Virus record (IMG/VR): IMGVR_UViG_3300037493_002376
Span: 1-22,744 of that record
Strand: one strand, 5' to 3'
Length of the DNA stretch: 22,744 nt
From: a virus
Both the position numbers and the translations under genes were made by a program. Positions 1,488 through 21,223 of this stretch are shown here, piece after piece (position 1 is the stretch's first letter; every line of letters begins with the position of its first letter). The notes under the pieces are model-generated. The model worked only from the letters and a program-made list of their open reading frames with translations, searched no databases and was not told the DNA's origin.

Positions 1488-4151
1488 TTATACTTGTCTT
1501 CCTAATGTTGTTTGGAATGTTTGAACTATAGTTGTGTAATTTGTCGCATTTGTATCACTTAATCCTAATCCAATAGTAAAGAATGCGTATTCTCTACTTG
1601 TAAAGTATACCGCAGAACCACTATTATATGCTCCTAAAAATATATTAACATTTGGTTGTAAAGATGATGTGGCAGCATTAGTTGTGCTATCAGTATATTC
1701 TGTTCCTGCTCTCCATGCGGACATTTCAGTTGAAGAGTTCCTATTATTGATAATAAATCCTAATGAGTTTGTTGGTGATGACATTCCACCAGTGTCTTCA
1801 AGCAATGAATTGTTTGAGTGGTAAGCATCATTTGCCCCCCAACCAAGAATATACAAATTACCTTGTGAACCAGAACCTACCGCTCCAATATCTATTGCGG
1901 TTGATGGTTCACTATAATTTGTTCTTGAATAGAACCCTATATGTGTTGAATCTAAACCTAATTCAGTAGTAGGATTAAGTTGTGAGTTAATATAAGTATT
2001 TGAACCATTACCCAATACACCAGTACTTGAAATAGTCCAACCACCATTAAATGTTCCTGTAAATCCAGAACTCATTAAGTTTTGAGCACAAGACGCAGAA
2101 GAACCTCCGACCATCGGATAAGCGGCTTTAACTAATCCCCAAATAGAGTTTGACTTCATATCAAGAACTAATTGATTTACTGCGGTTTCTTCTGTATTTG
2201 TTAAACTACCACCAGCAGCGGTAACACGATTAAAGAATGCTTGAGCATCAGCATCAAAAGCAGGTACTAATGTTGCCGTAGGGGTTAATGTAGGAGTTTG
2301 AGTATTTGTTGTAGTAACCGTAGGAGTTGGAGTATTAGTTGTGGTAACCGTAGGAGTTGGGGTTGGACAAATTAGTGGGTATGTTAAATAGAAACTTTGA
2401 ATTGTACCTGGAGGAGTTGTTTGGTTTAATCCATTTTGTAAATATCTAACTGAGCCATCTTGAATATAACTATTATAATTGTTCTGTATTAGAGTAGCTC
2501 CTGTTGTTGTATTCCATGGGTCACTTCCCTGTATTGTTGCCCAACCTGTATCAGTAGAACCTGCAAACATTCTTGAGATAAACTTATTAGGTCCTGATTG
2601 ATAAACAGGATAATTATATCCATCAGGAGCAGTTCCTACCCTTCCATCTAATGGTGGGGCCGCTACTTCATAATATCCATAAGTAAATGTTCCGCCAGTC
2701 CAATCATATTTTCTATTGTAAGTTCCATCAAATCCTTGTGTTGATAATGTTAAATCAAACTCTACAGGACAAACAGAATTAGGTGTTGTCGTAAGTGTAG
2801 GTGTAGGAGTAGGTGTAGGAGTAGTAACAGGTAAAGTTGAGGTTGGTGTTGATGTAGGAGTTGAGGTATTAGTTGGTGTAGATGTTTGTGTAGGTGTTGG
2901 TGTAGTGGTTGGTGTCTGAGTATTAGTTGGAGTATTGGTTGGAGTTAAAGTATTAGTTGGAGTTAAAGTATTAGTTGGCGTCTGAGTATTCGTAGGAGTA
3001 TTGGTTGGAGTTTCAGTATTAGTTGGAGTATTGGTTGGAGTTAAAGTATTAGTTGGAGTTAAAGTATTAGTTGGCGTCTGAGTATTCGTAGGAGTATTGG
3101 TTGGAGTTTCAGTATTGGTTGGAGTTAAAGTATTAGTTGGCGTCTGAGTATTTGTAGGAGTATTTGTTGGAGTTTCAGTATTAGTAGGAGTAGTGGTTGG
3201 AGTATTGGTTGGAGTTTTGGTAGGTGTTGAAGTATTAGTAGGTGTTGGGGTAACTGGAATTTCTTCTACATAAAAACTATTGTCATCGGCATTTATAAGA
3301 TATAAAGGAGGACAAGGTGGAAGTGAAACAAGATAATCATAAAAACCAATAGTAGTTCCTGATTGAGTATATTGTAATATACTATTTAAATATACATTAT
3401 AAGTTGCCTCCCATTCATAAATTCCAGAACTGTAACCAATAAAATTATTTAAAACATAATCCATTGTATCAAAATAATATCCAAAGGCAAGACCAGATGA
3501 TGCCGCAATTTGATAATTAGGGTCTAAAATATCTAACACAAATGTATAAGTTGTTCCAGTAGTTCCTTGAACATTGGGACCTACAGCACAATATAAAGCA
3601 GTACTTCCAGTAAGAATAGAAGCGTCATAAGTAATTGCGTTGTGTGTTATAGTAAAACCTGTTGTTGAAGGTATTGGAGTATTTAAACCAGGTGTTCTAT
3701 TTTGTAATATTAATCTAAAATAAAATTCTGCTGGTGGTGTTGTTGTAGGTGTTGGAGTAGGTGTTGGTGTTTTAGTAGGTGTTGAAGTATTAGTTTGAGT
3801 TGGCGTTTGAGTTTGGGTTGGAGTTTTAGTAGGTGTTGAAGTATTAGTTTGTGTTGGAGTATTAGTAGGGGTAGTGGTAGGTGTTGAAGTATTAGTTTGG
3901 GTTGTTGTTGGTGTAGGAGTCGTTGTTGAAGCAGGAGTCCCTGTTGACGTATTAGTAGGAGTTTGTGTATTAGTTTGTGTTGGCGTTTGAGTTTGGGTTG
4001 GAGTTTTAGTAGGGGTTATTGACGGAGTTGGCGTAGGAGTTGGCGTTGGAGTGGCAGTTGGGTCAACAACAAAATATGAAACAATATCATCTATTGCTCT
4101 TTGTTCTCCCAAATAGTCACTAAACTTTTTATTAAAGAATGTTCTCCCCAT
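1488..4151 (-). CDS. Stalked virion surface protein with three Thr/Pro linkers and lectin-like C-terminus (887 aa)
   Basis: Probable fibre or adhesin projecting from the virion. Residues 1-30 form a short non-repetitive anchor containing [12 protein letters not shown]. Three Thr-Pro-rich stalks (about 31-140, 301-458 and 596-628) separate three globular domains: D1 about 141-300, D2 about 459-595 bounded by Cys461 and Cys595, and D3 about 629-887. D3 has the pattern [13 protein letters not shown], then a helix ending [14 protein letters not shown], then beta-rich sequence with [10 protein letters not shown] know this arrangement from Bacteroidetes phage tail or fibre proteins, where the beta part looks like a concanavalin/LamG-type lectin fold; sugar binding is inference. 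The gene overlaps the end of the preceding 72-residue gene by 20 bases. No chaperone or enzymatic motif is visible. Confidence 0.8.
2268..2366 (-). repeat. Thr/Pro stalk-coding repeat, third linker of the 887-aa protein
   Basis: This short low-complexity stretch codes for residues 596-628, with the block T-P-T-V-T-T-T-N-T used twice in succession. It links domains D2 and D3. Part of it (2330-2360) is identical base for base to 19334-19364 in the tail-terminator-like gene. Confidence 0.9.
2778..3251 (-). repeat. Thr/Pro stalk-coding tandem repeat, second and longest linker of the 887-aa protein
   Basis: This region codes for residues 301-458 and contains nested tandem repeats. The higher-order block beginning [10 protein letters not shown] occurs three times in succession, with lengths of 22, 32 and 32 residues (66, 96 and 96 bases). 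The long and short forms differ by the ten-residue segment [10 protein letters not shown]. All length differences are multiples of three, so gain or loss of units keeps the frame. Confidence 0.92.
3732..4061 (-). repeat. Thr/Pro stalk-coding repeat, first linker of the 887-aa protein
   Basis: This region codes for residues 31-140. The phrase [19 protein letters not shown] recurs in slightly altered form, and the coding strand is almost free of G. It joins the N-terminal anchor to domain D1. Confidence 0.9.
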
Positions 4152-4352: not shown

Positions 4353-5423
4353 TTAATAAGTTAATCTTAAATAACCTCTTGCTCCAGTTCCTCCTCCAGT
4401 ATTTATGTTTGTATTCGCACATCCTCCTGAAGCACCACCACTTGTTGTATTTCCGTTAACTCCATTAGCAGAACCAGTTACTCCTGCGGCACCATTTCCA
4501 CCTTCAGGATTTCCTGTTCCACCACTACCAGCGGTATTTGAACTTGCATTATTTCCTATTACACTATTACCAGCACCTCCTCCTCCAGCACCAGAACCTG
4601 TAGTATATGAAGCTCCCTGTCCTCCATTACCTCCCCTATATAATACATCACCAATAGACAATGCAGTTGAGCCAGTACCACCAACTCCATTTTGAAGGCT
4701 ACTATTTGCATTCGAGCCACCATTTCCACCTTCAGCAAAAATTGTTGCTGCTGAATTAAACCAACTTCCATTACCTTTACCTCCTGAAGTACATGAACTT
4801 GAATTTCCTGCACTACCTCCAGTTCCAACTGTAACAGTATAAACTCCTCCAGGAGTGACACTAACAACTTTTTTGGCATAAGAACCACCAGCACCACCAC
4901 CACCGGTAGCACCTTGACCACAAGAGGAACCTCCACCTCCACCACCACCCCAAGCTTCAACAGTAACTGAACTTACTCCTGCAGGTGCAGTCCAAGTAGT
5001 TGTTGTTGTAAAGTTTGTTACAGTTGGAATAGGACTTGAAGTTGGAGTTATTGACGGAGTAGGTGTTGAAGTCTCAGTATTCGTTGGAGTTTGTGTTGGG
5101 GTTTCAGTATTAGTTGGAGTTTGAGTATTAGTTGGAGTTTGAGTATTTGTTTGTGTTGGCGTATTAGTATTCGTTGGCGTTTGGGTAACCGTAGGAGTAT
5201 TTGTAGGAGTGACTGCAGGAGTCCCTGTTGGAGTATTAGAAGGGGTTGGTGTTGGTGTTGTTGGGATTATGTTTTCACTTTCGTTATTCACACCAACAAT
5301 GGCACTCCATACCGGCATTTCTTTTTCACCATATGGTTTTAATGCTTCTTGAAAATCAAAAGGTTTTTTCTTTGTAATAAATTGTGCATTTGATGGTCTA
5401 TAACTTCTACCGTTCCACTTCAT
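4353..5423 (-). CDS. Stalked glycine-rich adhesin-like protein (356 aa)
   Basis: Residues 1-50 are a compact N-terminal anchor (M-K-W-N-G-R-S-Y-R-P, later E-A-L-K-P-Y-G-E-K-E). Residues 54-135 are a Thr/Pro stalk. Residues 138-356 are a glycine-rich domain opening with T-T-T-T-W-T-A-P-A-G-V-S-S-V-T-V-E-A-W followed by runs of up to seven glycines and ending R-G-Y-L-R-L-T-Y. This opening is characteristic of glycine-rich beta domains in phage and bacterial surface proteins; polyglycine motifs are also a hallmark of receptor-binding gp38-type adhesins of T-even phages. Virion surface location and receptor binding are inference. The gene begins just after a strong terminator, so its expression may be lower than that of the capsid gene or driven by its own promoter. 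The stop is 2 bases from the next start. Confidence 0.8.
   Translation of the reverse strand: MKWNGRSYRPSNAQFITKKKPFDFQEALKPYGEKEMPVWSAIVGVNNESENIIPTTPTPTPSNTPTGTPAVTPTNTPTVTQTPTNTNTPTQTNTQTPTNTQTPTNTETPTQTPTNTETSTPTPSITPTSSPIPTVTNFTTTTTWTAPAGVSSVTVEAWGGGGGGGSSCGQGATGGGGAGGSYAKKVVSVTPGGVYTVTVGTGGSAGNSSSCTSGGKGNGSWFNSAATIFAEGGNGGSNANSSLQNGVGGTGSTALSIGDVLYRGGNGGQGASYTTGSGAGGGGAGNSVIGNNASSNTAGSGGTGNPEGGNGAAGVTGSANGVNGNTTSGGASGGCANTNINTGGGTGARGYLRLTY
5019..5264 (-). repeat. Thr/Pro stalk-coding repeat in the glycine-rich adhesin gene
   Basis: This stretch codes for residues 54-135, mostly [11 protein letters not shown] units. It joins the N-terminal anchor to the glycine-rich domain. Base composition matches the stalks of the other three stalked genes. 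Confidence 0.9.
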
Positions 5424-7903: not shown

Positions 7904-10204
7904 TTAAATTCCATAGAAAGAATTTAGAATATCAATAACTTTGTTTAAAATAACTTCGTCTCTTTTTTCTCTTGAAAAATTAAGTAGGAAATTTCCTTCG
8001 ACACTTGCTCCTTGAATTTTTCTTTCTTTAATTAATTTTAAAACCTCGTTACCTTCAGGTGTGTCCAATACTTTATATGCTGACATCCAAGTTCCAAAAG
8101 GAAGTTGTTCTTGTGTAAAACCTAATTCATATGATTTATCTTTTTCACCTTTTATAATCCAAGTTTCCACGAGAACCAAATCTTCAAACTTTTTATCACT
8201 ATGTTCATAGTTGGTCATACGATTTCTTAGTTCTGACATGAACTTATCCCTAATAGTAACAATGGTTTGTGGTGTAAATTTTACGTAATATTTCTCATTT
8301 GTTACCTCATCAATTCTTGGAATTAAAATATCCGGTATCATTAGAGGCGTATATATCATTCGCTCTTCAGTTTTTGCCGCAAAGAGTTGTTCTGTATTTT
8401 TATTCAAGTTTGGTTTACATACATCACCAAATACACATTCAATATCTTTCATATAAGATACAGAGTTCATGTTCTGTTGTGATATGATATAAGCGACCTC
8501 AGATTTTCTTTTTGTTTCAGGACTAAAGTATCCGTTGTTTGGTAATGACTTTGGTGGGACACCAGCAATTCCATCTGCCATTCCTTGGTCTACCATATTA
8601 TTCTCTTGAAACAAATATTTTCGCCAAGCGTGAATACAATTAGGCCCTCCCTTATATAAGTATTTGCTATAAGATTCTCCATTATGTCCAAATTCTTTAT
8701 TGGTATCTTTTAATAAATCTATTTCTAATCTACGGAAATATCTATTCTCTATTGAATCACAGAAATCTCTGTCAGGTGAACCTGATAATATTCTTTCATA
8801 TTTGAAATATATGGTTGGTGTCTTGTGGTTTCTCCTGTAGATTTCCTGTTCTGTTGAACCTCTCATCGCTCCTGTAATTGATTCAAACTTTTCAAGGTCA
8901 GTCTCAGCTAAGAACTTTAACAATTTAACTGTTTCAATTTCTTCTTCAGTATAATCTTCAACACCAAATGATTCAGGATGTGTCTCACAAGCCATATAAC
9001 CCTCATCATGTTGGTGATGACCAACACAACCAATCATTGTTGCGTGGTTCTCAGCATCTTCAATGGTCTCAAATATTGGATTTCCATCTATGATTCCAAT
9101 TTGACCAGGAAACATTTGAAACTTTTCAAACTCTTCTTTTGGGACACAATTTGGAACCTCACGACCATTTAACATTTTTGTTCCAATTGCAATATAACCC
9201 TCCCAACATGCGTCTTCCAATCCTTCAAATAGTCCACCAACACCACAACCACAATCTCCTTCAAATAATACTGGTGGTAATTCTTGTTCAACCAACATTG
9301 AGTCCGTATCTCCACTTGATGGATAGTTCTCGTATGCTGGTAAACCTGCAGTATCATAGTCAAATTTAATTGCTATAGGTCCTAATTCTTGTCTTACATT
9401 AAAATCTGAATCATAATGTCTTGGTAATTCCATTCTTCTAATCAAATCTACCTTCTCAGTTCTTGTTGAATACATTTGGATTGCTGTTACAGGAATACGA
9501 TATTGATTGGTAAAATCAATAAGGTCTTTAGTTGGTAATCCCTGTATGAATATAATTGGTAATGAACCTCGGCTCATTTCATTTTTAAACATTCTTAATC
9601 CTGTAGGTGTCTTTAAAGTTTCCCATTCAAAACCAACTCTTGTTGCTGAGAAGTTTCTATTCTCCCACATACCGTAACATTGTCCTGCGGCTTGGTCTTG
9701 AGTCTTACCCTCGTTTATAACATAGGATATGCAACGACCAATGAACTCGTCTTTGGATTCTGTTGAACCTGGTTTAACAAAGTCTTGAACTCCCATCTCT
9801 AATTCCTTTAAGATTGAATCTACCCACTCCAACGCTGGTTTACCACCCCATAAGTCATAAGAGATGGTTCCATTGTCATCGTAGTTTCCTGTATAATAAG
9901 TTGCAGCTCTTTCCAAATATGATTTCATTCTCTTTACAGTCTCCAATGAAATCTCATCACGAGAACAAAGTTGTTGTGCTCTGATTTTTCCTGTTTGAGT
10001 TGCTGCAGGATTTCCCCTTTCCTCATTCTCCTTGATGGCACGACATGCCTTTGCAGACACATTGTCAGGTGCCTTGTAGAATTTCTGTTTATTGAAATAC
10101 ATTAATTCCTGTTCAATTGCTGGATATTCTACCCATGCCACTTCAAATACACCAGTGTCACCTGATATTTCGGGGTTTACTTCAAGTTCTATTACTTTAT
10201 ACAT
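7904..10204 (-). CDS. Multi-domain head maturation protein with C-terminal XkdF-type protease domain (766 aa)
   Basis: Residues about 614-740 match the XkdF (Peptidase S78_2) family: I-Y-T-P-L-M-I-P-D, Y-Y-V-K-F-T-P-Q-T-I, N-Y-E-H (His668), V-E-T-W-I-I, D-K-S-Y-E-L-G (Ser691), F-G-T-W-M-S-A-Y-K-V and G-A-S-V-E-G-N-F. The family is regarded as a putative prohead serine protease. Upstream are several small modules that I know as separate parts of phage head proteins: K-A-C-R-A-I-K-E-N to L-W-G-G-K-P-A-L-E-W (about 51-127), E-S-K-D-E-F-I-G-R-C to Q-C-Y-G-M-W (149-180), a Cys/His cluster C-V-G-H-H-Q-H...C-E-T-H (393-409), and a segment ending Y-K-G-G-P-N-C-I-H-A-W (517-527). Position between tape measure and scaffold fits a head assembly role. 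Proteolytic activity and its target (scaffold or capsid) are inference. Confidence 0.83.
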   Translation of the reverse strand: MYKVIELEVNPEISGDTGVFEVAWVEYPAIEQELMYFNKQKFYKAPDNVSAKACRAIKENEERGNPAATQTGKIRAQQLCSRDEISLETVKRMKSYLERAATYYTGNYDDNGTISYDLWGGKPALEWVDSILKELEMGVQDFVKPGSTESKDEFIGRCISYVINEGKTQDQAAGQCYGMWENRNFSATRVGFEWETLKTPTGLRMFKNEMSRGSLPIIFIQGLPTKDLIDFTNQYRIPVTAIQMYSTRTEKVDLIRRMELPRHYDSDFNVRQELGPIAIKFDYDTAGLPAYENYPSSGDTDSMLVEQELPPVLFEGDCGCGVGGLFEGLEDACWEGYIAIGTKMLNGREVPNCVPKEEFEKFQMFPGQIGIIDGNPIFETIEDAENHATMIGCVGHHQHDEGYMACETHPESFGVEDYTEEEIETVKLLKFLAETDLEKFESITGAMRGSTEQEIYRRNHKTPTIYFKYERILSGSPDRDFCDSIENRYFRRLEIDLLKDTNKEFGHNGESYSKYLYKGGPNCIHAWRKYLFQENNMVDQGMADGIAGVPPKSLPNNGYFSPETKRKSEVAYIISQQNMNSVSYMKDIECVFGDVCKPNLNKNTEQLFAAKTEERMIYTPLMIPDILIPRIDEVTNEKYYVKFTPQTIVTIRDKFMSELRNRMTNYEHSDKKFEDLVLVETWIIKGEKDKSYELGFTQEQLPFGTWMSAYKVLDTPEGNEVLKLIKERKIQGASVEGNFLLNFSREKRDEVILNKVIDILNSFYGI

Positions 10205-13424: not shown

Positions 13425-16052
13425 TTAACAAGTGGTTTGTAATACTCTACCATAAGTATCAACACATACAAACGTGGTTGTCTGACCAACTTGTTGGATA
13501 TATGTTCCCATTGGTAGTAATTCAGGAGTTAATAAATCTAAGTAAATTATATCATCATTTTCAATAATAAAATTATTGTTTTCAGAATAGTAAGTATATT
13601 GAGTTGCAGTGTTATCACACACAGAAGCTTGGTTTGTTGAGATATATGCTAAATCATAATAGAAGTTCTCTGGTATAGGATATGGTTCATTTGGCCCATA
13701 AATATAAATTGGTGCTGGTGGTTCAACTTTATAATATGGTATGTTCTCTTTTATTAGAGATATTTTGGTAAGTCTTTTATTAACCAAATCGGCATCAAAC
13801 ATTTTTTCAATTGTATAAAAAGAATCTTTAATCCATATCTTATCATTTAATTTTGTTTCATATACATCAATAGGTCGGAAATAGAAATTACCCGTTAATC
13901 GTCTTCCTGTTGGGTCATATAGGTTGTCAGTAAAACTTCTCCAAAAGACATTATAGATATTAAAATCTGTGAATTGTTGTATCTGTGTATTACTATTACC
14001 AAAGAAATCAAATGTGCTTCTAAAATTTAAATCTGATATAATTGCAGATAGTTGTGAGTCTATTGTTGATAAGTGTGATACCGCAGGATAAGTTGTCCAT
14101 TCAATGGGGGTATTACCTGAAGACAAATACCACGACCCTTGTTGTGTTTTAAGTGCGTCTTTATATGCTAATCTATTTCCCACCCAAAAGAACAAATGTG
14201 GTTTTGTTGCATATGGTGCTTGTTGTTGATTATTATTATAATAAAATTGTGGTATAATAAAGTTGGGTGCATTGGTCACACCTGATGTAGGACATGAACC
14301 AAATGGTACCTCATATATTTTTTCACCACTAAAGAAATTAGAAGCTGATGTAAATCTTTCACGACCAAATACATAATCATATTGGTCATGCCATAATTTT
14401 GGTAGATATTCATTATCTGTAAATTGGTAAGTCCATGTTTGGTCTTTTGATAAATTAAAGGATAGTGGTTCAATTTTAACATCAGAGTTTAAATCTAATA
14501 TTTGAGTCCAATCCCTAACAGTTCTATCTTCGTTGTTATACTCCCAAGTATATGGTTCAATCCTTAAAGTTTTTGCTTGTTCATCCTGTGTAACTACAAG
14601 GTTAAACATTGTTATTAAAGATTTTAAAAATTGAACACAATCTATATTTGGAATACCCAATCTTATATCTAATAGTTCATTTGGAATAACTGGTGATTCG
14701 TATAATTCATATAATGGTAGGGGGTCAATAAGTGTTCCATCATTATATGCTTCAATTCTATATATTCCGTCTGAACCTCCAATGCAACTACTAACAAAAT
14801 TGGTCTTATCAAATATTACAACTTTAATAAATTCACCTGCCACAAATGAATCGTTAAAAAATAAATTAACAGGTAAGGGACCACTACCTAAATTAAAGAA
14901 ATCGTCACGATATGCCTGAGATAATTTAATTGGTGCGGATTCATAAAACATGGTTCCGTTTTCTACTATAAAAAATTGACTGGTGTGTCTGTATGCTCTA
15001 ATAACAATATCAGGAACTAATATTGCTAGCCAAATACAAGCGTCATTGGTGAGTACATTAAACCTAATATTAAATCCGTAGTTTCCTGCATAAGGAACTT
15101 GAAAGCTGGCGTAGACTGAGTTACTACCACCAGCACCTAATCCATTAAGATAATTGTTTAAAGGGTTATATGCAGGTCCTATGTTATCTCTAAAAGGTAA
15201 GTTATGAAATGTATCCTTATCATACGAATATGGTTGGGCAGTCATATAAGTCCTAAATATATTTTGGTTAGTTACACCTGAAACATAATCATTTCCAATC
15301 TTTCCATTTTGGAATGTGTCCATGTAGATTGAAGTAAAATAAGGTGAATCAAAAAACTCTGACACAATTGTATAGTCTGTCTGACTAATCATTCTATCCA
15401 ATACTGATTTTAGTTGGATTGCAGGTTTGAACATTGATGGTTGAACAGGAAATGACGCTGAGTCAAATGACCTTGGCATATCAAAGTCATAAGTAAATGT
15501 CGGGGTTGCTCCACTATCACTTGAACCCTGATAATCTAAACCATAGTTAATAAGGGGATATATGATTTGTCCGTTAAATAATCCTGAGGCCCCATCGTTT
15601 ACACATTCCCAAGATTGAGTAACTGATGAATATGCCAGTTCGTGAAGTAAGTCTGTATAGTCTAAATCTTGTAATTGAAGGTTTTTAAGTGGAGCTGTGA
15701 AGTCAGTTACCTCACCCATCAAATAAATCTCGTATAATCGTTCATCGTTGTTTGTGGTTACAGAGTTCAATCTCATTATTCCCTGAAATATATCTGTACC
15801 TCTGTATTGAACAATACATGAAATCTTTTGTAGTGGGTCAAATAAAATTCCGTTTACCTCATAGTAATGTTCAAATATTTGTGCATTATTAGTGGTATCA
15901 GGAATTTGAATTGTTTTAGAATATGGAACTCTACGACTAGTCAAATCACTAATATCATTCTGTTGAATTGTAAGAGTAATTGGAATGTCTTCAAAAACAT
16001 CAATACGCTGCCAAGTATTATCCTCAAGTTGTGCTAATAGTATTGTATCCAA
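13425..16052 (-). CDS. Baseplate hub-like tail protein (875 aa)
   Basis: A large tail protein of a type common next to tape measures in Bacteroidetes phages. Residues about 1-60 contain E-D-I-P-I-T-L-T-I-Q-Q-N-D-I-S-D and R-V-P-Y-S-K-T-I-Q-I-P-D-T-T-N-N, a conserved N-terminal signature of this group. The rest is beta-rich, with stretches such as F-N-L-V-V-T-Q-D-E-Q-A-K-T-L-R-I-E-P-Y and W-T-Y-Q-F-T-D-N-E-Y in the middle and Y-T-I-E-K-M-F-D-A-D-L-V-N-K-R-L-T-K-I-S-L-I near 780-800, resembling hub proteins of the gp27/distal-tail kind. It likely sits at the tail tip where the tape measure ends. The assignment rests on family memory, size and placement just before the tape measure; an exact structural role (hub versus distal tail) cannot be fixed here. 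Confidence 0.62.
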   Translation of the reverse strand: MDTILLAQLEDNTWQRIDVFEDIPITLTIQQNDISDLTSRRVPYSKTIQIPDTTNNAQIFEHYYEVNGILFDPLQKISCIVQYRGTDIFQGIMRLNSVTTNNDERLYEIYLMGEVTDFTAPLKNLQLQDLDYTDLLHELAYSSVTQSWECVNDGASGLFNGQIIYPLINYGLDYQGSSDSGATPTFTYDFDMPRSFDSASFPVQPSMFKPAIQLKSVLDRMISQTDYTIVSEFFDSPYFTSIYMDTFQNGKIGNDYVSGVTNQNIFRTYMTAQPYSYDKDTFHNLPFRDNIGPAYNPLNNYLNGLGAGGSNSVYASFQVPYAGNYGFNIRFNVLTNDACIWLAILVPDIVIRAYRHTSQFFIVENGTMFYESAPIKLSQAYRDDFFNLGSGPLPVNLFFNDSFVAGEFIKVVIFDKTNFVSSCIGGSDGIYRIEAYNDGTLIDPLPLYELYESPVIPNELLDIRLGIPNIDCVQFLKSLITMFNLVVTQDEQAKTLRIEPYTWEYNNEDRTVRDWTQILDLNSDVKIEPLSFNLSKDQTWTYQFTDNEYLPKLWHDQYDYVFGRERFTSASNFFSGEKIYEVPFGSCPTSGVTNAPNFIIPQFYYNNNQQQAPYATKPHLFFWVGNRLAYKDALKTQQGSWYLSSGNTPIEWTTYPAVSHLSTIDSQLSAIISDLNFRSTFDFFGNSNTQIQQFTDFNIYNVFWRSFTDNLYDPTGRRLTGNFYFRPIDVYETKLNDKIWIKDSFYTIEKMFDADLVNKRLTKISLIKENIPYYKVEPPAPIYIYGPNEPYPIPENFYYDLAYISTNQASVCDNTATQYTYYSENNNFIIENDDIIYLDLLTPELLPMGTYIQQVGQTTTFVCVDTYGRVLQTTC

Positions 16053-16056
16053 AATA

Positions 16057-16590
16057 TTATTTTCCTAAAAGTTTGATGTTATTACTGTAAACATATTGTA
16101 ATTCTAAATTAAATACAGTTCTGTTACCTTGTATCTTTTTCTCAAATTCTGTGTTTAAAATATTCACAGGAGCAAGTCCTCCATCACTTGTAATTTCATA
16201 AACAAGATTTGAGGTATATAATTCCTCTAACCATTGGAATGTAGGTTGATTTACAAATCCTGAATTAACCAATACGGTTTCAACCATAACAACATCGGAG
16301 TCATTTAATCCACGAGAATATTGCGTCTTTATTGGATTGTCTGAACCCCAATCAATGTTCAGTGATTTGTATTGTTGTCGGTCAATAGATAAACCTTGAA
16401 ATCTATTAAACATTAGTCTAACATAATCGTAGTGTCCATATCGATTCAAGAACATTAATTGAATATGTTGATTCTGTGAACGACTTACACCACAATTCAA
16501 GTTGAATGTGAATACCTCAGATATTGGTTGGTATTCAACACAATTTCCTTCAGTATATGTTGTTGGTGGAGTTTGTGGGGTTATTGCCAT
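16057..16590 (-). CDS. Tail protein, probably the C-terminal partner of the 560-aa tail protein (177 aa)
   Basis: The protein has F-T-F-N-L-N-C at about residues 27-33 and I-Q-L-M-F-L-N-R-Y-G-H-Y-D-Y-V-R-L. In other Bacteroidetes phages I remember the pattern 'C...R-L-x-F-L-N-R-x-G-x-x-D-Y' as the C-terminal half of a single tail protein whose N-terminal half resembles the first 300 residues of the 560-residue protein encoded just upstream. Here the two halves appear as separate genes with a holin-like gene between them. The ATG at 16590 lies one base after the stop of that small gene, and its own stop lies 4 bases before the hub-like gene, consistent with one operon. Specific function is unknown; tail tip or fibre attachment is the best guess. 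Confidence 0.6.
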   Translation of the reverse strand: MAITPQTPPTTYTEGNCVEYQPISEVFTFNLNCGVSRSQNQHIQLMFLNRYGHYDYVRLMFNRFQGLSIDRQQYKSLNIDWGSDNPIKTQYSRGLNDSDVVMVETVLVNSGFVNQPTFQWLEELYTSNLVYEITSDGGLAPVNILNTEFEKKIQGNRTVFNLELQYVYSNNIKLLGK

Positions 16591-16591
16591 T

Positions 16592-16753
16592 TTATCTCTT
16601 TTCTAAAATACTCCAAGTACCACCGATTAAAGTAAGTAATCCTCCGCTTATTTCTGTAAAGGTTGTTTCATCTAAAACACCTTTCATAATTAATATACCT
16701 CCAACGAATGTAAGTATATGTCTAATTAAAGCTAATATTTGTATCTTTTTCAT
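16592..16753 (-). CDS. Holin-like small membrane protein (53 aa)
   Basis: This short gene starts with ATG at 16753 and stops with TAA at 16594-16592, one base before the next ATG. The protein begins M-K-K-I-Q-I-L-A-L-I-R-H-I-L-T-F-V-G-G and ends G-G-L-L-T-L-I-G-G-T-W-S-I-L-E-K-R. There are two hydrophobic segments, about residues 6-23 and 35-50, joined by a short polar turn with D-E-T-T-F-T-E-I. I know this two-helix layout with R-H-x-L-T near the N-terminus and W-S-I-x-E-K-R at the end from small holin-like proteins of many phages. A role in lysis is therefore plausible, although no endolysin is visible in the window. It lies inside the tail block, 21 bases after the 560-residue gene. Confidence 0.72.
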   Translation of the reverse strand: MKKIQILALIRHILTFVGGILIMKGVLDETTFTEISGGLLTLIGGTWSILEKR

Positions 16754-16774
16754 AGTTATATTATTTTATTTTAT

Positions 16775-18457
16775 TTAGTTGCAGGCACCTCCTGCAGTCG
16801 TTACTGTTACGTCATCACAGGACTCTACAATTGAAGTACAAGCACAAGCAACATATAATGTCCCAAGCGGTGATAATGTAACTGAAACCCATGTGTTTGT
16901 TGAACAATTATAGTATTGAACAAAACAACTATTAACACTAGAGTTGTTTGATATATTAATAGGGTAACAAGTTGCACAATGTGCTGTTGGTGTGGTTGTA
17001 GGTGTTGGTGTAGCTGTTGGTGTAGGTCCACATCCTCCTTGTGAAATAGTTACATCAGAATATTGGTATGTTAATGTACCATTACATGCACAGAATGGTT
17101 CCTTTGAAGTATTACCTGGTAAGTTATATGATTGAGGTACTCCATTACAATCTAACCATGTAAGTTTATCAGTATATGGTGAGTTATTAACTACGGTATA
17201 TTCTACACAATTACATGAGAATGGTGTAGGTGTTGGTGTTGGTGTTGGATAAAGTATTTGACAAGTACCAGCAGGTGTTGCAATTGCTCCTCCAACACTA
17301 AATACTGGTTCAACACAAGAACATACCGTATAACTTACGTTAGGTTGTAAAAACAATGTACCATATTTACCAGTAAAACAATTTTGGTATGATGCGGTAT
17401 ATGATATAAAACCATCATAAGAAACATTATATTGAGTACAACCCGTACAGAATGGTGTAGGTGTGGGAGTTGGTGTTGAGTTTGGAGTTGAGGTAACTGA
17501 AGGAGTTGGTGTCGGAGTTGTTGGTACTGGAATTGGAGTTGTTGAACCTGTAAATTTTCCATATAACTGAACGGTATATTGAGCAGCATTTGCCGGAAGA
17601 TTTGGTAGGTTTGCTGGTCCTGCCCCCACATAGAGTGTGTTGTAATCTGTTGTTCCTGTTACAGGAAAAAGTAGTGGTAATTGTTGATACACATAATTAC
17701 AACTAGTTCTTGGACCTCCACCATTTGATACAATATTGTCGTATGTTGTTGCAGTGATTACTGCTCCCTGGTCATCAATAAAAGTGTATTTGACATAATA
17801 CCCTTCAGAGAACCCTGTTGTTCCACCAGACCAAAGATAATAGTTTGTGAACCCTAATGTAAAATAGTCATCTTCTAAAACATCCAATGTTCTTGGAGCG
17901 TTTGTTAGGAATAAGTTAGATGTGGTTGGATTTGTTCCTACAGGAGTTCCTGATAATACAAATTGACCTATGTTAAAACTTTGTTGTGTGGCTTTGGGAT
18001 TTACACCCATTGTCGAACGAAATACTTTATAAGGAAGACTCTGAACTCCTGGTGGGCCTAAAGCGTTTCCATAACCTGTAAATCCTGAGATTGACCCTAA
18101 TGCTGAATCTGCAAATTCATAACCAGTCTTTACATAATAACTTATAGTTTCTGTATTTAAAGGTCTTGAGAATGGAAATGTTTGGTGTGTATAAATTGGA
18201 GTTGTGTCCCAATATGATAGGGGTAATGAATCTGTGTAGGTTTCAAGGATTTGTTGTAAATCCAATATCCCAAGTCCATAAGGGTTTGGTGTACAATTAC
18301 CTTCAAATACCAATACGTCATCAACATAGAGCTCATACTTAAATTTGAACTTAAATGTGCTTATGGGATTGTATGTATCCGATGATAATGTAAAATATAT
18401 ACCATCTGATAATACGGGTTGAAACTCTGCTGGTGTTGCGCTATAAAATATACTCAT
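16775..18457 (-). CDS. Tail protein with Thr/Pro linkers and three tandem six-cysteine modules (560 aa)
   Basis: Residues 1-305 form a beta-rich region (Y-E-L-Y-V-D-D-V-L-V-F-E-G-N, I-L-D-L-Q-Q-I-L-E-T, and Y-T-V-Q-L-Y-G at its end) similar to the N-terminal half of tail proteins in Bacteroidetes phages. A Thr/Pro linker (308-336) leads to three Cys modules of about 65 residues (337-399, 415-476, 494-559), separated by shorter Thr/Pro linkers. Each module has the pattern C-x1/2-C, about 20 residues, C, about 19 residues, C-x-C, about 18 residues, C. The regular spacing suggests a small disulfide or metal-stabilised beta fold repeated as a string, probably exposed on the virion. The start overlaps the preceding stop by four bases (ATGA). 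No enzyme motif is seen. Confidence 0.72.
   Translation of the reverse strand: MSIFYSATPAEFQPVLSDGIYFTLSSDTYNPISTFKFKFKYELYVDDVLVFEGNCTPNPYGLGILDLQQILETYTDSLPLSYWDTTPIYTHQTFPFSRPLNTETISYYVKTGYEFADSALGSISGFTGYGNALGPPGVQSLPYKVFRSTMGVNPKATQQSFNIGQFVLSGTPVGTNPTTSNLFLTNAPRTLDVLEDDYFTLGFTNYYLWSGGTTGFSEGYYVKYTFIDDQGAVITATTYDNIVSNGGGPRTSCNYVYQQLPLLFPVTGTTDYNTLYVGAGPANLPNLPANAAQYTVQLYGKFTGSTTPIPVPTTPTPTPSVTSTPNSTPTPTPTPFCTGCTQYNVSYDGFISYTASYQNCFTGKYGTLFLQPNVSYTVCSCVEPVFSVGGAIATPAGTCQILYPTPTPTPTPFSCNCVEYTVVNNSPYTDKLTWLDCNGVPQSYNLPGNTSKEPFCACNGTLTYQYSDVTISQGGCGPTPTATPTPTTTPTAHCATCYPINISNNSSVNSCFVQYYNCSTNTWVSVTLSPLGTLYVACACTSIVESCDDVTVTTAGGACN
17450..17536 (-). repeat. Thr/Pro linker before the six-Cys modules
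   Basis: This stretch codes for residues 308-336 (V-P-T-T-P-T-P-T-P-S and similar). Shorter linkers of the same kind separate the Cys modules near 17220-17250 and 16980-17030. On the plus strand they are made almost wholly of G and T. Confidence 0.85.
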
Positions 18458-19019: not shown

Positions 19020-20429
19020 TTATATACAACCATTAGGGTCTGTTCCACCAACTTGTCCAAGACCACCTATAACATTATACGTGGCGGTTCCATTTGAATA
19101 CCATCCATCAGGTACGGGATTTGTTAATGGTATTGATGCTGTCAAATATAAGTAATCACCAAGATTAATAACTGCCCCTCCTGCAATAGTCCCATAAACA
19201 GTAATTGGACTTGCACTATACGATAAACAAGCGGCATTTTCAGTTATACCTGTACCTAAACTAAATGTGTACCATGCAAAAGTTTGAGTAGGTGTTTGAG
19301 TTGGAGTTGTTGTTGGAGTTGTTGTTGGAGTTTGAGTATTAGTTGTGGTAACCGTAGGAGTTGGAGTAGGTGGAATAAATACAACATTAACACACGGACA
19401 AACTGGTGTAACCGATGATATTGTAAATCCACTTATATTACCTGCTCCTGTTGAATAAGTGTGAGTATGGTCGTTATTTGCCATAACTGTACTATATGGA
19501 ACATTTATCGCCCCACTTGTTATATCATAACTTCCAACTATTGTATAATCACATAAGGCATTTGCATTACCTGTGTAATTGGCGTTATTAAATAATGTAA
19601 ATTTTATATTATCATTACCTTGTATTTCACTCTGTAAATATTGTGTTGTAAAAGTTCCACAAGTAGGTGTCTGTGTTTGAGTCTGTGTTTGAGTCGGTGT
19701 TGTTGTTGGAGTTGAAGTATTAGTAGGTGTCTGTGTTTGAGTCTGTGTTTGAGTTGGTGTTGTTGTTGGAGTTGAAGTATTAGTAGGAGTTGTGGTAGGT
19801 GTTGGAGTTTCAGTATTGGTTGGTGTTGCCGTTGGAGTTTCAGTATTGGTTGGTGTTGCCGTCGGAGTTAACCCAATTGTAACTGTTGGTGTTTGAGTTT
19901 GAGTTGTTGTTGGAGTTGGAGTAGTTGTTGAAGTATTAGTAGGGGTTGGTGTTGGATAGTAATCACACGAATCTAATGTATCATATACAATCAATGGGAC
20001 TTCCATTGCAACTCCTGCCACATGGTCTCCAAATCTCTCAAAGAATGGAATTGCTTGAACTGGCATGTTCACATCCAAGTTGTCAAATAATATTGGTGAG
20101 GTATTCAAACCAAACTTCAAGTAGGCTAAGAATCTCTTGGCCTCCATGCTCATGTCGGATACACAATCCTTTTCATTGGATAAGTCCCAATTTAAGATGT
20201 CAGCAAAAATCATGGTAACAGAATATATTGTCATATTCTCCTGATACTCTATTGCTTGAGGAACCACAAATAAGAATGGATAGTTCACAGATGAACCTGA
20301 AATATTCTTTCCAAAATCCACCAAGTTTCCATAACCAAATGTGTTTAACATTGGAGCTTGTTCCTGAAAATATTGTAGGTAATCTAACACCTTATGGAAG
20401 GTGGTATATTGATTCATTATATTAGTCAT
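19020..20429 (-). CDS. Tail-terminator-like protein fused to Thr/Pro stalks and C-terminal domains (469 aa)
   Basis: Residues 1-158 look like a compact alpha/beta tail terminator or tail completion protein, with helix F-H-K-V-L-D-Y-L-Q-Y-F, Y-P-F-L-F-V-V-P and the signature I-P-F-F-E-R-F-G-D-H-V-A-G-V-A-M-E-V-P (127-145). I know this signature from proteins of that position in Bacteroidetes phages. Residues 159-256 are a Thr/Pro stalk. About 257-352 is a beta domain containing Cys257, Cys293, Cys344 and Cys346, about 353-383 a second stalk, and about 384-469 a domain W-Y-T-F-S-L-G-T-G...A-A-C...G-C-I that recurs in Bacteroidetes proteins. The stalk and appended domains are unusual for a terminator, which usually has 120-170 residues. 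The start directly abuts the preceding stop. Confidence 0.68.
   Translation of the reverse strand: MTNIMNQYTTFHKVLDYLQYFQEQAPMLNTFGYGNLVDFGKNISGSSVNYPFLFVVPQAIEYQENMTIYSVTMIFADILNWDLSNEKDCVSDMSMEAKRFLAYLKFGLNTSPILFDNLDVNMPVQAIPFFERFGDHVAGVAMEVPLIVYDTLDSCDYYPTPTPTNTSTTTPTPTTTQTQTPTVTIGLTPTATPTNTETPTATPTNTETPTPTTTPTNTSTPTTTPTQTQTQTQTPTNTSTPTTTPTQTQTQTQTPTCGTFTTQYLQSEIQGNDNIKFTLFNNANYTGNANALCDYTIVGSYDITSGAINVPYSTVMANNDHTHTYSTGAGNISGFTISSVTPVCPCVNVVFIPPTPTPTVTTTNTQTPTTTPTTTPTQTPTQTFAWYTFSLGTGITENAACLSYSASPITVYGTIAGGAVINLGDYLYLTASIPLTNPVPDGWYSNGTATYNVIGGLGQVGGTDPNGCI
19281..19373 (-). repeat. Thr/Pro stalk-coding repeat, second linker of the terminator-like protein
   Basis: This region codes for residues 353-383. 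The 31 bases at 19334-19364 are identical to 2330-2360 in the 887-residue stalk gene, about 17 kb away. The shared protein phrase is T-P-T-V-T-T-T-N-T. Confidence 0.88.
19662..19955 (-). repeat. Thr/Pro stalk-coding tandem repeat, first linker of the terminator-like protein
   Basis: This region codes for residues 159-256. Two near-identical copies of a 60-base unit (about 19663-19782) encode the phrase [14 protein letters not shown]. Two copies of a 30-base unit at about 19804-19863 encode T-P-T-A-T-P-T-N-T-E. All units are multiples of three bases. Confidence 0.9.
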
Positions 20430-20738
20430 TTATTTCTTCATTTTTTTAAGTTCGTTTTGTTGTTGAATAATCCTGTCTTTAATTAATGCTCCAGTCGTCA
20501 AACATAAATATAGATTAAGCTCATTGAGTTGTTCTATTTTGGTAATGTCTTCACTTGCGAGTTGATAAGTTAGTTGAAAATAGAATCTTGCAGTGGCTTC
20601 GGATGGAGCCATTTGGGTAGTATCTTCAGTATCGGTTTCAGGTTCTTTTCTATCTTCATCTTCACTTTCAAAGAAATGTCTGTACGAGCTATGTATTCGT
20701 TTAATGTGTGCAAAAAAAAACTTGAGACTCCAAACCAC
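20430..20738 (-). CDS. Tail assembly chaperone, frameshifted C-terminal part (gpT-like)
   Basis: This frame is open from 20738, but its first codons (GTG start, V-W-S-L-K-F-F-F) lie inside the upstream chaperone gene and are probably not an independent start. It is entered by a -1 shift on the T run at 20720-20712, giving a joined product of about 264 residues. After the junction come A-H-I-K-R-I-H-S-S-Y, an acidic linker (E-S-E-D-E-D-R-K-E-P-E-T) and a helical region with F-Y-F-Q-L-T-Y-Q-L and I-E-Q-L-N-E-L-N-L-Y-L-C-L. This organisation matches the lambda gpG/gpGT pair, in which the extended form recruits tail tube subunits while the G part coats the tape measure. The next gene starts directly after its stop. 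Confidence 0.62.
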   Translation of the reverse strand: MVWSLKFFFAHIKRIHSSYRHFFESEDEDRKEPETDTEDTTQMAPSEATARFYFQLTYQLASEDITKIEQLNELNLYLCLTTGALIKDRIIQQQNELKKMKK

Positions 20739-21223
20739 ATTTCTACAGGTAAGTTTAATTTAAAGAGTTCTGACCTTTCGATTACATCTACTGACTTAAA
20801 CTTTTCCAATTTATATTTTGTTCCATTTTCACTTTTAACTGGTCTGTATAGGAGTGACATAATCAAGTGGATATTCTCTAACAACTTATCTGATTGAGAA
20901 TATACCTCAAGGTCTACCCATTGTCCCCATGTCATTTTTTGCCAATCGTTCTCCAATCCATAGGTTACTCCACTTAACTCAAAGGTGGTTACCAGTTCAT
21001 TTGTTTTTGGTTGCAAGATGTGGTTTGATAATGCTGATTCAACAAACTTAATTTTTTCTGCAGGTAAATCTTTCAACTCATCTACGGATACTTCCAAATA
21101 TAAAGCAAGTATCTCTTCTGGCTTGGAATACTTAATAGTATTTCCCTGTATCTTTTGATATTTATCAATCGTTAATTTTGGATTGACCTTAATTACTTGG
21201 TCATCAATTACTACTTCTATCAT
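20570..21223 (-). CDS. Tail assembly chaperone (gpG-like, 217 aa)
   Basis: The protein opens with M-I-E-V-V-I-D-D-Q-V-I-K-V, then has L-T-I-D-K-Y-Q-K-I and a helical middle with M-T-W-G-Q-W-V-D-L-E-V-Y and I-H-L-I-M-S-L-L-Y-R-P. The phrase 'G-Q-W/F-x-D-L-E' followed by 'x-x-I-M-x-x-L-Y-R-P' is typical of chaperones of this group in Bacteroidetes phages. The start overlaps the terminase stop by four bases (ATGA). The gene overlaps a second frame by 169 bases, and codons 169-171 (TTT TTT TTG) offer a -1 slip site. In most siphoviruses this pair sits next to the tape measure; here it is about 7 kb away with five tail genes between. It is not part of the finished virion in the known cases. Confidence 0.68.
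   Translation of the reverse strand: MIEVVIDDQVIKVNPKLTIDKYQKIQGNTIKYSKPEEILALYLEVSVDELKDLPAEKIKFVESALSNHILQPKTNELVTTFELSGVTYGLENDWQKMTWGQWVDLEVYSQSDKLLENIHLIMSLLYRPVKSENGTKYKLEKFKSVDVIERSELFKLNLPVEMWFGVSSFFLHTLNEYIARTDISLKVKMKIEKNLKPILKILPKWLHPKPLQDSIFN
20711..20720 (-). other. Probable -1 programmed frameshift site (nine T then G)
   Basis: On the minus strand the frame-0 codons are AGT TTT TTT TTG CAC. Either T-TTT-TTT or T-TTT-TTG can act as a slippery heptamer. Sliding back one base gives GCA CAC ATT as the next codons and enters the downstream open frame. A homopolymer sequencing error (true run of ten T) would fuse the two frames without recoding. Confidence 0.6.

Follow-up and report, generated by a model that had tools for sequence, protein, structure and literature searches.

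The virus sequence analysed here (IMG/VR record IMGVR_UViG_3300037493_002376, 22,744 nucleotides; hereafter the window) encodes a 560-residue protein that ends in three cysteine-rich repeats, raising the question of what these repeats are and what they do on the virion. With moderate confidence, we propose that they are all-beta, disulfide-stapled modules of an unnamed family, which probably form an exchangeable adhesion array on a tail protein of siphovirus type in a Bacteroidota phage. The features discussed below are listed in Table 1.

Table 1. Coordinates and strand of the carrier gene, its parts, the adjoining tail genes and module B copies in related contigs.
Feature	Position	Strand	Remarks
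Carrier, 560 residues	16775..18457	-	N domain, Thr/Pro strings and three six-cysteine A modules; full-length relatives in IMG/VR contigs
N domain, residues 1-300	17558..18457	-	62-97% identity among full-length relatives
Thr/Pro string, residues 301-336	17450..17557	-	
A module 1, residues 337-399	17261..17449	-	6 Cys
Thr/Pro string, residues 400-414	17216..17260	-	
A module 2, residues 415-476	17030..17215	-	6 Cys; five-strand predicted fold, pLDDT 93.8
Thr/Pro string, residues 477-493	16979..17029	-	
A module 3, residues 494-559	16781..16978	-	6 canonical Cys plus 511 and 547
177-residue protein	16057..16590	-	Matches the C-terminal part of one longer tail protein in contig L092 and of P12024S gp44
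875-residue tail protein	13425..16052	-	P12024S gp45 homologue
Module B copy	L029:1794-2048		
Module B copy	L025:5492-5746		
Module B copy	L022:5522-5773		
Module B copy	L024:5489-5725		

A repeated six-cysteine module

The original prediction described three tandem modules with fixed cysteine spacing, and this spacing was residue-exact in the 560-residue protein. The six canonical cysteines are separated by 2/19/18/1/17 residues in module 1 (cysteines 337, 340, 360, 379, 381, and 399), 1/19/18/1/17 in module 2 (415, 417, 437, 456, 458, and 476), and 2/20/19/1/18 in module 3 (494, 497, 511, 518, 538, 540, 547, and 559, including the two extra residues). Twenty of the 22 carrier cysteines lie within the 191 module residues (10.5%), the others being residues 55 and 253, and cysteine accounts for 0.9% of the remaining window proteins. 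When the same 20 cysteines were placed randomly in the 224-residue tail, a single module arose in 114 of 200,000 trials, and two or three modules arose in none. The additional third-copy cysteines, 511 and 547, were likewise confirmed and were retained in all five third modules of that type in a 49-row alignment.

Relatedness beyond the cysteines was assessed by building a profile from one module type across relatives and scoring it on another type against 1000 cysteine-preserving shuffles. The type 2 profile on modules 1 and 3 and the type 1 profile on module 3 scored above all 1000 shuffles, and the type 3 profile on module 1 beat all but one. Neither of the two profiles tried on module 2 reached significance, 347 of 1000 shuffles being as good for type 1 and 72 of 1000 for type 3. 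Because the cross-type profiles outscored cysteine-preserving shuffles in four of six directions, the repeats are, judged by sequence, homologous and not just alike in spacing.

In total, 49 copies of the module, termed module A and approximately 62 residues long, were gathered and aligned. The first five cysteines were present in 49/49 copies and the last in 48/49, being shifted by a few residues in contig L082, while identity to module 2 of the window dropped to 18-20% within the set. The strongest positions besides cysteine were Gly60, Tyr6, Val/Ile55, Glu5, and Gly25. Each window module has the arrangement C-x1/2-C ... C ... C-x-C ... C and matches the family profile beyond the cysteines, with E values of 6e-21, 8e-18, and 3e-15 (the window rows are included in this profile, and the cross-type comparison is the independent one). 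The profile search that had been suggested as a check thus recovered a coherent family with conserved cysteines, and not the chance cysteine matches that would have argued against a domain.

Relatives of the carrier or its modules were found exclusively in other IMG/VR contigs, the window itself being an IMG/VR fragment. These homologues bear one to three A modules, a single one being retained in L029, and the last is often exchanged for a second type, module B. Module B is approximately 83 residues long, has its own cysteine set (GGIC-x-C ... TVYT ... GD ... GGPC), occupies the final A position in many relatives, and had no match in Pfam or among cultured phages. A modules are also carried by the homologue of the 875-residue tail protein in L071 and L082, where, as in L092, A/B modules ride its C-terminus, by an 886-residue fibre-like protein (G001:26702), by a homologue of the window protein p19020 (G009:22575), and by a Thr/Pro-rich protein in G011, an otherwise unrelated contig. 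All full-length homologues seen contain such cassettes.

No known family accounted for the module. In PHROGs, the full carrier had no match at E <= 1 and single modules gave weak scattered matches; Pfam matches were also weak and scattered, with no family claiming the module. Among PDB sequences none was worth keeping, Internalin-J (E 0.23) being regarded as a chance match. Searches of cultured phages by tblastn gave no match to modules or carrier; two Vibrio phage hits (E 2-8) fell in a conserved hypothetical gene next to genes of nucleotide metabolism and were attributed to chance. Two pattern-seeded scans of bacterial genomes found no relative, although distant ones are possible. Ig-like and BACON families were absent from the Pfam matches of the 49 modules at E <= 0.5, and no lectin or CBM family was matched by sequence. 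In keeping with the initial view, neither Pfam nor PHROGs nor PDB sequences offered a family name, and the A-module family appears to be undescribed in Pfam, PHROGs, and the literature searched.

Predicted fold and possible role of the cysteines

An AlphaFold2 model of module 2, built from the 49-row alignment, was compact and all-beta (mean pLDDT 93.8), with five strands at residues 3-10, 16-21, 27-32, 36-44, and 54-58. The full-length model repeated this five-strand order in each of the three modules, where pLDDT was mostly 60-86, and reached only about 50 in the N domain. The common fold that structure prediction had been expected to reveal was thus seen, confidently in module 2 and as the same strand order in modules 1 and 3. 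Taken together with the profile family, this supports the small repeated domain first proposed from the cysteine spacing.

The closest Foldseek match was the pVHL beta domain (PF01847; E 0.18-0.45, TM by query approximately 0.5), and no match was better than 0.18. VIA-align 2 ranked TM1070 and the Anabaena sensory rhodopsin transducer closest (Z 5.3-5.5), followed by LecB-type lectins, Ena subunits, and pVHL (Z 3.5-4.4). By the tool's own yardstick, these model-based matches indicate only a common beta arrangement; the similarity is too weak, and therefore no function was drawn from it. The pVHL domain was the top Foldseek family (VIA Z 3.5-3.6, rmsd 3.8 A over 55 residues) and also had a module 2 sequence match (E 0.0037), but this match scored 17.7 bits against the Pfam gathering cut-off of 21. 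Only 2 of 49 modules matched it at E <= 0.5, and no shared conserved cysteine pattern was shown, so assignment to the VHL family by sequence was rejected.

Six cysteines in so small a domain can be read in more than one way. Three intra-domain disulfides would be their simplest role, and these would most likely form after lysis. Virions assemble in the reducing cytoplasm, which counts in favour of a different reading, namely that the cysteines coordinate a metal (zinc, iron, or copper), for instance in a two-metal six-cysteine cluster, so that the modules fold without disulfides; C-x-C pairs and a total of six cysteines would suit such clusters. Module 3, however, gains exactly two cysteines, which occur together in five of five copies, fitting one added disulfide and being too few for a metal site, and we consider metal binding quite improbable. 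The single additional cysteine found in some A modules is neutral between the disulfide and metal readings. In the predicted strand order, strands B and D would end, and strand A would start, on one side, while the extra pair 511/547 (start of B and start of E) would sit at the opposite pole; the last cysteine would consequently join the other five close to where both strings attach.

If disulfides do form, they might instead join subunits, stapling tail proteins into structural armour that plays no part in adhesion. Such networks are established in virions of Agrobacterium phage Milano (PMC10491603), and the module fold bears a weak likeness to subunits of Bacillus Ena endospore appendages, which are disulfide-linked pili and also combine a beta domain with disulfide-forming cysteines. 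The structural match to Ena subunits (PF13157; 9i0y, 7a02) was weak (Foldseek E 0.33, VIA Z 3.5-3.6, rmsd 3.4 A over 59 residues), and unrelated folds scored higher. The Enas profile had no match in the window, likewise none in control genomes, and was not listed for the 49 modules at E <= 0.5; Ena chains are also approximately 113 residues long and belong to Bacillus spore fibres. In the A modules, the cysteines come in an even number and are conserved within each 62-residue unit, as intra-domain pairing predicts, and they are concentrated in the appendages, with few in most other tail proteins of the window. Since interface parts are not expected to sit on flexible strings and evolve rapidly, as these modules do, we regard inter-subunit armour as unlikely.

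The carrier gene and its neighbours

The carrier was placed in the tail by gene order and by homology to a cultured phage. Read along the minus strand, terminase is followed by p20570, p19020 with Thr/Pro strings, a tail-completion-like gene (18454), the bead protein, the 177-residue protein, and the 875-residue tail protein, and then by tape measure, prohead protease, capsid protein, fibre-like proteins that bear strings, and portal; naming of the tape measure, the portal, and the tail-completion-like gene derives from weak PHROG matches, gene order, and reading of the sequences. This order was common to the relatives read. The window was collinear with the cultured flavobacterial (Nonlabens) phage P12024S (Inhavirus), described as a siphovirus. 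P12024S matches comprised gp37 to the terminase (E 2e-26), gp38 (4e-9), gp42 (5e-6), the C-terminal part of gp44 to the 177-residue protein (2e-4), gp45 to the 875-residue protein (3e-9), and gp49 to the end of the tape measure (0.002). These results support the assignment of the carrier, lying between the tail-completion-like gene and the tape measure, as a siphovirus-type tail protein, in line with the earlier description of a phage tail protein. The host is likely a member of the Bacteroidota, because P12024S is collinear with the window and the terminase search also pointed to Bacteroides and Flavobacterium phages. The virus would be a phage of freshwater Bacteroidota-like bacteria.

Comparison with relatives suggested that the tail gene had been divided. 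The 177-residue protein was probably once the second half of the carrier and became separated from it. In L092, one 629-residue protein lacking strings replaces the bead protein and the 177-residue protein; it resembled the N domain at its start (residues 1-77; single-target profile E 1e-6) and the 177-residue protein at its end (4e-6), and the A and B modules of this contig are found on the neighbouring tail protein instead. Similarly, P12024S gp44 is a single gene of 474 residues, compared with 300 + 177 in the window, with detectable similarity in the C-terminal part only. The simplest reading of these alignments is that DNA for strings and beads was inserted at a domain boundary, dividing the tail gene. 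A 184-base gap (16591-16774) separates the bead gene from the 177-residue gene, whereas the same genes nearly abut in other relatives; it is possibly a trace of the split.

Several other features of the region were recorded. The order of genes across the window (2-22744) is unusual, with tail genes right after terminase and protease, capsid protein, and portal beyond the tape measure, and is kept in the relatives read. Overlapping frames at 20570-21223 and 20430-20738 (region 20430-21223), between terminase and tail genes, look like a tail-assembly chaperone pair that could use a frameshift. Virion-region proteins at 19020-20429, 1488-4151, and 4353-5423 have long Thr/Pro strings separating small domains, and the C-terminal domain of the last is Gly_rich_2 (PF21722, E 2e-14). 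At 7904-10204, a 766-residue protein combines an XkdF-type prohead protease (PF14550, E 3e-8) and DUF3721 (PF12518, E 1e-7) with a long N-terminal region.

Rapid change, cassette exchange and proposed function

Comparison of the window with its close relative L002 showed adjoining sequence that was 95-100% identical and a third module, the part changing fastest, at 82-86%. Changed codons in the N domain comprised 8 nonsynonymous and 17 synonymous, compared with 27 and 5 in the modules (Fisher p = 9e-5), and no cysteine was altered. With equal dS, dN/dS was 0.15 for the N domain and 1.1-1.2 for the modules, a ratio that comes from one close pair, lies near 1, and could also be produced by relaxed constraint. 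The modules changed approximately sevenfold faster than the carrier at the protein level. In a more distant pair, the window and L005, dN/dS was 0.15 for the N domain and 0.46 for the modules, and between L026 and L032 the module value was 0.17-0.18.

These ratios bear on whether the beads serve the phage at all. They might serve as a decoy or as camouflage, or be appendages that are largely neutral: a tail extension under weak constraint, which the phage could do without and which either shields the virion or is carried along by recombination-prone Thr/Pro DNA, as a dN/dS near 1 between the window and L002 and the retention of one A module in L029 could indicate. Drift would, however, lose cysteines, and none was lost in 49 copies (one was shifted); dN/dS was well under 1 in the remaining pairs, and cassettes were retained in each full-length homologue seen. 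We therefore hold this reading to be rather improbable.

Exchange of whole cassettes was apparent in the pair L026 and L032. Nucleotide identity was 60-83% in the N domain, 86-100% in most of the bead region apart from a single 68% patch in module 2, and 76-83% just past the gene, and dS was 2.8 for the N domain and 0.33 for the bead region. Since the beads are more alike than the N domain and the downstream flank, the sequences indicate that recombination moves the bead cassette, with edges near the Thr/Pro string. A diversity-generating retroelement was considered and rejected: module substitutions were of all kinds and not adenine-specific, and no reverse transcriptase was found among the annotated window proteins.

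The combination of a conserved anchor, variable and exchangeable beads, flexible strings, and tail location fits adhesion modules as proposed for Ig-like and BACON domains. BACON repeats of crAss-like phages are small, tail-associated beta-sandwich repeats, subject to duplication and horizontal transfer, for which host binding has been proposed (PMC6949934). Ig-like domains on phage tail-tube and capsid proteins (lambda gpV, SPP1 gp17.1*, T5 pb6, T4 Hoc) are proposed to bind surface carbohydrates weakly and thereby aid adsorption (PMC8718954, PMC10385173). Like BACON arrays, the A modules are tail-associated beta repeats in Bacteroidota phages; the end of P12024S gp45 is annotated as BACON-like (Pfam E 0.003, below the cut-off), and homologues of gp45 in other relatives carry A/B modules. 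In contrast, no BACON profile matched the A modules, which at 62 residues are shorter, contain six conserved cysteines, and are spaced by Thr/Pro strings. As with phage Ig-like domains, variable beta domains end a conserved virion protein, here predicted by the fold models and assigned to the tail by gene order and homology; unlike them, A modules have no Ig-like Pfam match, are smaller with five predicted strands and six cysteines, and sit on another carrier. The family appears to be new and is by sequence neither Ig-like nor BACON, while its proposed mode of use resembles that of known tail-appended beta domains.

In the adhesion reading that we favour, the conserved N domain, presumably the virion-anchoring portion, would hold the protein in the tail. 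The Thr/Pro strings, which support the beads-on-strings layout originally described, would keep the beads away from the anchor. Display of the beads on the outside of the virion is presumed, the N-domain model being of low confidence. The beads would bind the host surface weakly and multivalently, probably at a glycan or capsule; recombination in the string/bead region would exchange whole sets, and fast amino-acid change would retune individual beads. A broader version, which we offer tentatively as possible but doubtful, is that A modules and module B form a shared cassette pool of uncultured Bacteroidota phages. Thr/Pro-string recombination would move these cassettes between phages and among at least four virion proteins, an insertion of this kind would have split the conserved tail gene, and host-surface recognition would change without a reverse transcriptase or phase-variation enzyme.

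If the adhesion reading is correct, phage tails carry a new domain family that is very small and pinned by cysteines, and the uncultured phages abundant in freshwater may adjust their attachment through bead exchange and mutation with the tail protein unchanged. The A modules are compact enough for direct expression and testing as binding units, and their profile offers a way to annotate proteins that current libraries leave unlabelled. Between L026 and L032, whose bead regions are otherwise 80-100% identical, L026 codons 442-461 form a short module 2 patch with 62% nucleotide identity, which may mark a variable binding face.
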